A stretch of DNA of 64,000 nt from the NCBI GenBank assembly GCA_947247005.1, contig OX365955.1, positions 5,094,001 through 5,158,000 on the forward strand. Direction: 5' to 3'. Positions 45,148-45,760 of this stretch are shown one piece after another (position 1 is the first letter of the stretch; every line of letters begins with the position of its first letter). The notes beneath the pieces are model-generated. The model did not search any database. It was not told where the DNA came from and was given only the letters and a program-made list of their open reading frames with translations. Source of the DNA: Spisula solida (taxonomy: Eukaryota; Mollusca; Bivalvia; Venerida; Mactridae). Both the position numbers and the translations under genes were made by a program.

Positions 45148-45760
45148 TTTGACATTTCTGTCTAAAACTTTGTCCCGGGTGCTAAGGCACACACCCCAGA
45201 GTTATGGTCTCACTCTTAGGCCGGGTGGATTTCTTTGCATAAAGGAAATCTTAAACCATGTGCCAAAACTCAGTAGATTTACATCAGAGGATGTGCAGAG
45301 AGTAGTGGCTATCGATGATAAACAGCGATTCGCTCTGAAGCCAGAGGGTAACCAATGGCTAGTAAGAGCCAATCAAGGTCATAGTTTCCCAGTAGAGGGC
45401 CTAGAGCTTAAAATCATTACCTCCGCTGAAGAGTATCCTAAGATAATACATGGCACATTCAAAGATGCCTGGGATAATATCAAACAGACTGGTTTATCAA
45501 AGATGAAAAGAAACCACATACACTTTGCAGCAGAGGAACCTGGTAAAGGCGGGGTAATAAGTGGCATGAGAAAATCCTGTGAGGTAGTCATTCACTTGAA
45601 AGTGAAAAAAGCAATGGCGGACGGATATCAATTCCTGATATCCGCCAATAAGGTCATCTTGTCTGAAGGTAATAGGGAAGGGGTCATTCCCCCTTGTTAT
45701 TTTGAAAAGGTTATAGACCGCAAGACCAAACAGGAAATGCCCTTTGACCCCTACGTAGGT
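45148..45760 (+). other. Tpt1/KptA RNA 2'-phosphotransferase domain inside pol
   Basis: About 200 residues, in frame with RT. Signatures in family order: LSKTLSRVLRH (Arg1028-His1029), GGFLCIKEIL, VVAIDDKQRFAL, VRANQGHS (Arg1088), IIHGTFKDAW, GLSKMKRNHIHFA, GVISGMRKSCEV (Arg1156), ISANKVILSEGN and IPPCYFEKVI. Arg-His-Arg-Arg is the catalytic tetrad of the family, all present at normal spacing. Tpt1 uses NAD+ to remove a 2'-phosphate from RNA splice junctions, and some members ADP-ribosylate RNA 5' ends. No stop or frameshift falls in the domain, and low-complexity linkers flank it. Capture from a host cDNA is inferred. Its role for the element is unknown. Confidence 0.92.

Follow-up and report, generated by a model that had tools for sequence, protein, structure and literature searches.

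The systems closest to the element described here are the Ty3/gypsy long terminal repeat (LTR) elements of orchids that carry AlkB (PMC9289625), and the KptA domains in viral polyproteins (PMC9503650). The orchid elements are described as 25-kb plant elements encoding an AlkB m6A RNA demethylase, active in vitro, in an additional open reading frame (ORF) (PMC9289625). KptA was reported in the polyproteins of a few RNA viruses, where a participation in RNA processing was proposed (PMC9503650). Here, we analysed a stretch of 64,000 nucleotides from the clam Spisula solida (contig OX365955.1, positions 5,094,001 to 5,158,000 of the forward strand), hereafter the window. The window harbours one Ty3/gypsy element, which extends from LTR to LTR at positions 39588-48727, possesses gag and pol, and includes in its pol a Tpt1/KptA RNA 2'-phosphotransferase domain. 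The literature on KptA, Tpt1 or TRPT1 with retroelements or RNA ADP-ribosylation, covered through titles, the openings of abstracts and, for a few papers, passages, and mostly without subscription papers and bioRxiv preprints, revealed no such element, in agreement with the original prediction, which knew of no LTR retrotransposon with this architecture.

The Tpt1 domain in the element and its genomic copies

The Tpt1 domain is located in frame after RNase H and before the zinc-binding H2C2 domain of the integrase. PF01885 matched pol residues 1019-1189 with E=1.5e-56 and 191.7 bits (cut-off 26), covering positions 6-177 of the 177 of the Pfam profile. This strong and nearly full-length match confirms the original prediction of a complete Tpt1/KptA domain inside a Ty3/gypsy pol, for which a missing profile match had been named as a reason to abandon it. 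The domain also matched thirteen distinct PDB sequences, the best being 7yw2 (E=4.4e-42), and including 7yw3 (tRNA 2'-phosphotransferase 1). The AlphaFold model of the domain has a pLDDT of 92.6 and a pTM of 0.84.

Tpt1 moves the RNA 2'-phosphate onto NAD+ in two steps (PMC6333775). The essential tetrad Arg-His-Arg-Arg corresponds to R18/H19/R68/R121 in CthTpt1, with the third residue two positions past the conserved Lys K66, and the fourth twenty past H101, the His of the HGT motif (PMC6333775). Located through the K-x-R motif and the distance from the HGT His (motif at pol residues 1116-1118), the tetrad of the element consists of R1028, H1029, R1075 (after K1073), and R1136 (20 past H1116). 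The retention of four catalytic residues had been claimed earlier for R1028, H1029, R1088, and R1156. The first two are correct, but R1088 and R1156 lie outside the tetrad, in place of R1075 and R1136. All six of these Arg and His residues are present in the element. Among 36 aligned sequences, R1028, H1029, R1075, R1136, and R1156 are invariant, as are the H and G of the HGT motif, and R1088 is variable.

The whole genome (932 Mb, 36 contigs) was searched with the profile and with the reverse transcriptase (RT). Nine out of the eleven PF01885 matches belong to copies of the element, spread over eight contigs, and the remaining two are partial matches in host TRPT1-type genes. The RT search gave at least 115 matches, a lower bound with 114 of the 1174 first-look candidates scored. 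RT sequences at least 94% identical to that of the element occur at nine loci, which are the same nine Tpt1 loci; the next class is 75% identical. The 106 RT matches outside these loci do not coincide with any Tpt1 match. A chance match is excluded by the E-values and the eight further copies, and the domain very probably is a Tpt1/KptA domain with a selected function in the element.

Six copies are young (the window copy, C5, C6, C8, C13b, and C20), being 0-2 of 546 bases apart over the Tpt1 domain, with one or two differences between the window copy and each of the other five. The open pol frame, by one measure, comprises 1806 aa in four young copies, 1529 aa in one, and 1433 aa in the window copy, and in C20 the Tpt1, H2C2, and integrase core (rve) domains are found within one frame. 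In the older copies C14, C17, and C9, the Tpt1 domain has diverged by 1.3-5.5% from that of the young copies, and in C17 and C9 it contains a stop codon.

The LTR search of the genome yielded 31 matches, among them an LTR of C9. LTR pairs are identical in four out of four testable copies (window, C6, C8, and C13b), the sole reported difference in the pairs of C8 and C13b being the base preceding TG. These copies are flanked by the 4-bp target duplications TCTG, CATG, AAAC, and ATTC, respectively; target duplications of Ty3/gypsy elements usually have 4-5 bp. In the stretches examined, a single LTR each was found for C20 and C14, and none for C5 and C17. From LTR to LTR, C6, C8, and C13b measure ~12.0 kb. 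A short copy at G000:C13:11884387-11890381, which combines a TatD frame with two LTR matches but has no match to RT or Tpt1, appears to have arisen by internal deletion.

Full-length copies also possess a third ORF. In C6 this ORF has 804 aa (L119:83-2497) and a C-terminal TatD nuclease domain (PF01026, E=6.5e-35). The same TatD frame is present in C8 (L120), and the TatD search revealed the ORF in C13b and C20 (frame 806). It is rearranged in C5 and fragmentary in C14 and C9, and was found neither in the C17 stretches examined nor in the window copy. Based on the at least 115 RT matches of the genome, a TatD match lies up to 9 kb downstream on the same strand at 45 out of the 55 RT matches with at least 59% identity to the element, and up to 9 kb downstream at none of the 60 with at most 51%. 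TatD looks like a clade-wide accessory nuclease marking a gypsy clade. No report on TatD in such elements was found in the literature, judged from listings.

Origin of the domain and selection in the element

The gypsy relatives P0141 (79% identical over RT and RNase H), P0144, and P0145 share with the element the order protease, RT, RNase H, and integrase (PR-RT-RH-IN), as do sister families in the same genome, such as C5:9253525; unlike the element, they lack Tpt1. Five sister families of this genome have an RT 68-75% identical to that of the element and align with it on both sides of the domain, which they lack. The linker from RNase H to the zinc-binding domain comprises 539 aa in the element, against 157-387 aa in 93 of the 95 relatives that were measured; the other two gave outlying values (-799 and 648), which were not considered. 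The RT region matched 3971 proteins among 8000 scored candidates (protein search 3), and PF01885 was found in none of the 120 matches listed; likewise, a Tpt1 query matched 0/120 of these listed relatives. In the RT-RH tree (41 rows, built with the best 40 of the 120 relatives), the element groups with P0141, P0148, P0143, and P0147 (support 96/93). Some of the records end before the integrase; P0147, for instance, has no integrase domain listed, and a truncated end may explain why it lacks Tpt1. Parsimony favours a gain of Tpt1 in the lineage of the element. Tpt1 as a general feature of the lineage is ruled out by the listed relatives and by the 106 other RT matches of the genome.

Protein searches with the domain were restricted by length. 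The first (0.55-1.75 times 1428 aa) gave 18 matches among 449 candidates, with an RT domain listed in none of the 18 and a protease in one (P0014, Mytilus). The second (0.55-1.75 times 440 aa) gave 481 matches, and two of the 120 listed have retroelement-type domains (P0042 and P0074, Mytilus). These three proteins come from three species of Mytilus and join a TRPT1-like protein to an aspartic protease domain of retroviral type; two of the fusions are 62% and 67% identical to Mytilus TRPT1. They represent a second, apparently independent link of a retroelement protein to Tpt1, and could be a domesticated gene of the host or the product of fused gene models. In the contigs of IMG/VR and GTDB, 0/8 and 0/83 pattern matches, respectively, were confirmed as close relatives of the Tpt1 domain. 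Distant Tpt1 relatives were confirmed 116 times in IMG/VR, with a related RT in none of the best 80. The RT of the element had no match in IMG/VR and one short match in GTDB, and an exact LTR 23-mer had none in IMG/VR.

The genome of S. solida also encodes a TRPT1, on C2, in which the same domain is divided into six exon-like pieces by intron-like gaps. In contrast, the domain of the element is one piece without such gaps, and from the missing introns we infer a capture from spliced mRNA. The two are 58% identical, the highest value among the rows compared. The six-piece host gene, together with an identity of only 58%, points to an old capture of spliced mRNA, and this identity rules out a recent capture from the resident TRPT1. 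The domain of a molluscan TRPT1 thus appears to have been captured from spliced mRNA into the variable RNase H-integrase linker.

For the phylogeny, 48 proteins were chosen from the listings of protein searches 1 and 2. In the tree without the host gene (49 rows, from which P0057 and P0074 were dropped), the domain of the element falls outside a 21-row, mostly bivalve clade. In the tree with the host gene (44 rows, after dropping P0057, P0074, and the long-branch P0056, P0062, P0065, and P0072), it belongs to a weak, poorly resolved group of 25 rows. The host TRPT1 groups with Mya (98/84) on a branch of 0.20 changes per column, and the branch of the element has 0.79 and 0.67 in the two trees. 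In the tree of the domain against the host TRPT1, proposed earlier as a check, the placement of the domain is unstable. The domain may also have a horizontal origin from another mollusc.

Cellular TRPT1 sequences of molluscs showed further differences. The bivalve proteins P0002-P0005 and P0027 reach a considerable length (693-1205 aa). Their N-terminal regions are of low complexity, and their C-terminal regions are related to one another but had no Pfam match in P0002-P0005, the four that were scanned. In contrast, TRPT1 of the gastropod (P0024) has 267 aa. A divergent TRPT1-like gene of S. solida at G000:C17:34031000-34040900 (L090), with LHH for LRH and KATQGH for RANQGH, is possibly a catalytically altered paralogue.

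The dN/dS of the Tpt1 domain was 0.34 between C6 and C14 (14 nonsynonymous, 11 synonymous changes), 0.14 between C6 and C17 (2 and 4), and 0.27 between C6 and C9 (14 and 14). If the domain evolved neutrally, nonsynonymous counts this low would have a probability of 0.011, 0.023, and 0.0011, respectively. RNase H plus linker behaved alike in the same comparisons (0.36, 0.39, and 0.30). The element keeps all 26 columns that do not vary across 26 molluscan-type and 12 other sequences, and 18 out of 23 invariant in the molluscan-type only, a set including P0023, P0028, and P0029, whose source was not assigned. It also keeps 32/41 columns conserved to at least 80%, 23/51 of those at 50-80%, and 13/40 of the most variable (<50%). 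This is moderate but direct evidence for selection of the Tpt1 domain inside the element. The original prediction had claimed a captured host cDNA kept under selection, arguing from a domain without lesion and from identical LTRs. Both capture and selection are supported, on other grounds, namely the six pieces of the host domain, the low dN/dS of C6 against the old copies, and the invariant columns.

Possible roles of the domain

We consider it about an even chance (roughly 0.5), judging from the sequences, that this Ty3/gypsy family captured a TRPT1 domain and keeps it as an NAD+-dependent eraser of RNA 2'-phosphates. Because the domain is part of Pol, it would be expected in the particle beside the RT. 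There it would use NAD+ to remove 2'-phosphates from the element RNA, the primer tRNA, or sites where breaks in either have been repaired, and the 2'-OH left behind would be readable by the RT. The 2'-phosphates could originate from host RNases, which would leave 2',3'-cyclic phosphates that are then opened to 2'-phosphates or sealed by yeast-like ligation. Ends might be trimmed by the TatD nuclease that these elements also encode. That the substrate consists of 2'-phosphates on template or primer RNA in the particle is suggested tentatively. A role in primer tRNA maturation is less likely, because RTCB joins tRNA exons in the canonical metazoan route (PMC13247085). Somewhat more doubtful is the broader proposal that the lineage has assembled an RNA/DNA end-processing kit, with Tpt1 in Pol and TatD as third ORF, because reverse transcription in animals is truly impeded by RNA ends that are 2'-phosphorylated or otherwise modified.

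Several observations weigh against the 2'-phosphate eraser. The account in PMC13247085 reports no evidence so far of a full yeast-like pathway in metazoan cells, and loss of Tpt1 in E. coli or mouse is described as giving no phenotype (PMC6333775). The supply of 2'-phosphates in animal RNA is questionable, and no Pfam RNA ligase or 2H phosphoesterase was detected in the scanned ORFs of the element. The selection test consists of three old copies, all paired with C6 and hence non-independent, and two of them (C17 and C9) have a stop in the domain. The dN/dS across copies, proposed earlier as a check, was low for C6 against the three old copies, but reached 0.42, 0.79, and 0.38 among the old copies; such raised values are expected if old copies decay. 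In addition, the element lost 5 of the 49 mollusc-invariant columns, compared with 0-2 in each of the 26 host rows.

Among the alternatives, RNA capping comes next, though it is unlikely. The domain would ADP-ribosylate 5'-phosphorylated ends of the element RNA, which would shield genomes that are uncapped or have lost their cap from 5' exonucleases and favour their packaging over translation. Human TRPT1 is reported to ADP-ribosylate phosphorylated RNA ends, a modification reversed by several cellular hydrolases (PMC6582358), and ADPr-capped mRNA is reported as XRN1-resistant and untranslated (PMC9458441). The retained tetrad and the confident predicted model are compatible with capping; however, the sequence does not reveal which RNA ends would be modified. 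Slightly less probable is a counter-defence, in which the domain would repair or re-mature, outside the particle, host tRNAs or RNAs cut in an antiviral or anti-transposon response. RNA repair was proposed for the KptA of phages and some viruses (PMC9503650). Nevertheless, expression within Pol would presumably yield little free enzyme, the host has its own TRPT1, and the scanned ORFs of the element lack a ligase.

A non-catalytic use, as a winged-helix RNA-binding module aiding packaging or template binding, is improbable. The RNA lobe of Tpt1 is described as winged-helix type (PMC6333775), and extra domains with RNA-binding motifs are reported in some plant gypsy elements (PMC9289625), but RNA binding alone would not need the tetrad and the HGT of the NAD+ lobe, which are retained. 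Even less credible is a functionless passenger riding with a successful family. The six young copies are near-identical, so their intact frames tell little on this point; nonetheless, the dN/dS against the old copies is low, and the catalytic and invariant columns are retained at only 58% identity to the resident TRPT1. Finally, an assembly join or private chimera, of which the original prediction had warned should no second copy exist, is ruled out by the eight further Tpt1-bearing copies, as the same misassembly would have to have occurred at all nine loci, which lie on eight contigs, and by the flanks, which align in frame with relatives lacking the domain.

Structure of the window copy and comparison with known systems

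The element has gag plus pol in the order PR-RT-RH-IN of Ty3/gypsy, with a broken integrase in the window copy (Table 1). RNase H was detected by RT_RNaseH_2 (pol residues 701-799) and RT_RNaseH (731-829). The pol ORF of this copy stops early, inside the integrase, where the ~840-bp insertion is flanked by a short imperfect duplication. The insertion is absent in C6, which rules out that this stretch is a family-wide intron. The ~3.72-kb deletion takes out the end of pol and the TatD ORF. The window copy is therefore a broken, recent insertion and not an intact element. The identity of its LTRs, noted earlier and verified here, indicates recent insertion and says nothing on intactness; the absence of lesions claimed with it applies to the Tpt1 domain, but not to the whole copy. 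Elsewhere in the window, positions 33602-35020 encode RT and RNase H and, in the same frame, a sub-threshold match to a Dam methyltransferase, a set which resembles DIRS-type elements.

Table 1. Coordinates of the element features in the 64,000-nucleotide window
Feature	Position	Strand	Evidence or remark
5' LTR, 261 bp, TG...CA	39588..39848	+	preceded by target duplication TCTG, 39584-39587
gag ORF, 553 aa, zinc knuckle and PNMA match under curated cut-off	40581..42242	+	ORF list, Pfam
pol ORF, 1428 aa, frame differs from gag, 139-bp overlap with gag	42104..46390	+	ORF list, Pfam
Aspartic protease domain, pol residues 149-238	42548..42817	+	Pfam
Reverse transcriptase RVT_1, pol residues 479-637	43538..44014	+	Pfam
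RNase H, pol residues 701-829, two overlapping Pfam matches	44204..44590	+	Pfam
Tpt1/KptA RNA 2'-phosphotransferase domain, single uninterrupted frame	45158..45670	+	Pfam, PDB sequence matches, alignment, AlphaFold model
Integrase H2C2 zinc-binding domain, pol residues 1369-1424	46208..46375	+	Pfam
~840-bp insertion between H2C2 and integrase core, window copy	46375..~47214		comparison with C6 copy
Integrase core (rve), separate ORF in window copy	47256..48119	+	ORF list, Pfam
Junction of ~3.72-kb deletion relative to C6, 8-bp overlap	48064..48071	+	comparison with C6 copy
3' LTR, identical to 5' LTR, then TCTG	48467..48727	+	LTR comparison

Metazoan Tpt1 is described as lacking a settled substrate, and tRNA exon ligation as differing between metazoans and fungi (PMC6333775, PMC13247085). 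Maintenance of the domain under selection in a selfish element would imply that the life cycle of the element is affected by a 2'-phosphate or an ADP-ribosylated RNA end, and suggests that RNA marks or damage limit how well such elements are copied. If the end-processing kit were real, it would reveal a substrate for the unexplained metazoan Tpt1, a question that becomes testable with defined RNAs and the domain in purified form. With Tpt1, LTR elements have acquired one more RNA-modifying domain, in this case inside pol.

Compared with known systems, cellular TRPT1 of molluscs (P0004 of Mya, P0024 of Haliotis, and the host gene on C2) is a homologue 53-58% identical to the domain of the element, with the same tetrad. 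However, cellular TRPT1 is unlinked to pol and has long extensions in many bivalve proteins, and the host gene is interrupted by intron-like gaps. Similar to the clam element, viral KptA is the same domain within a replication polyprotein or otherwise virus-borne, but its carriers are RNA or DNA viruses, and the passages on KptA in PMC9503650 name no retroelement bearing it, with retrotransposons, Metaviridae, and reverse transcription all absent from the main text. The orchid elements (PMC9289625) are, like the element of S. solida, gypsy LTR elements with a host-type eraser of RNA modifications. The clam element differs from them in carrying its eraser, Tpt1, inside pol and in having an animal host, and it is known from sequence alone.
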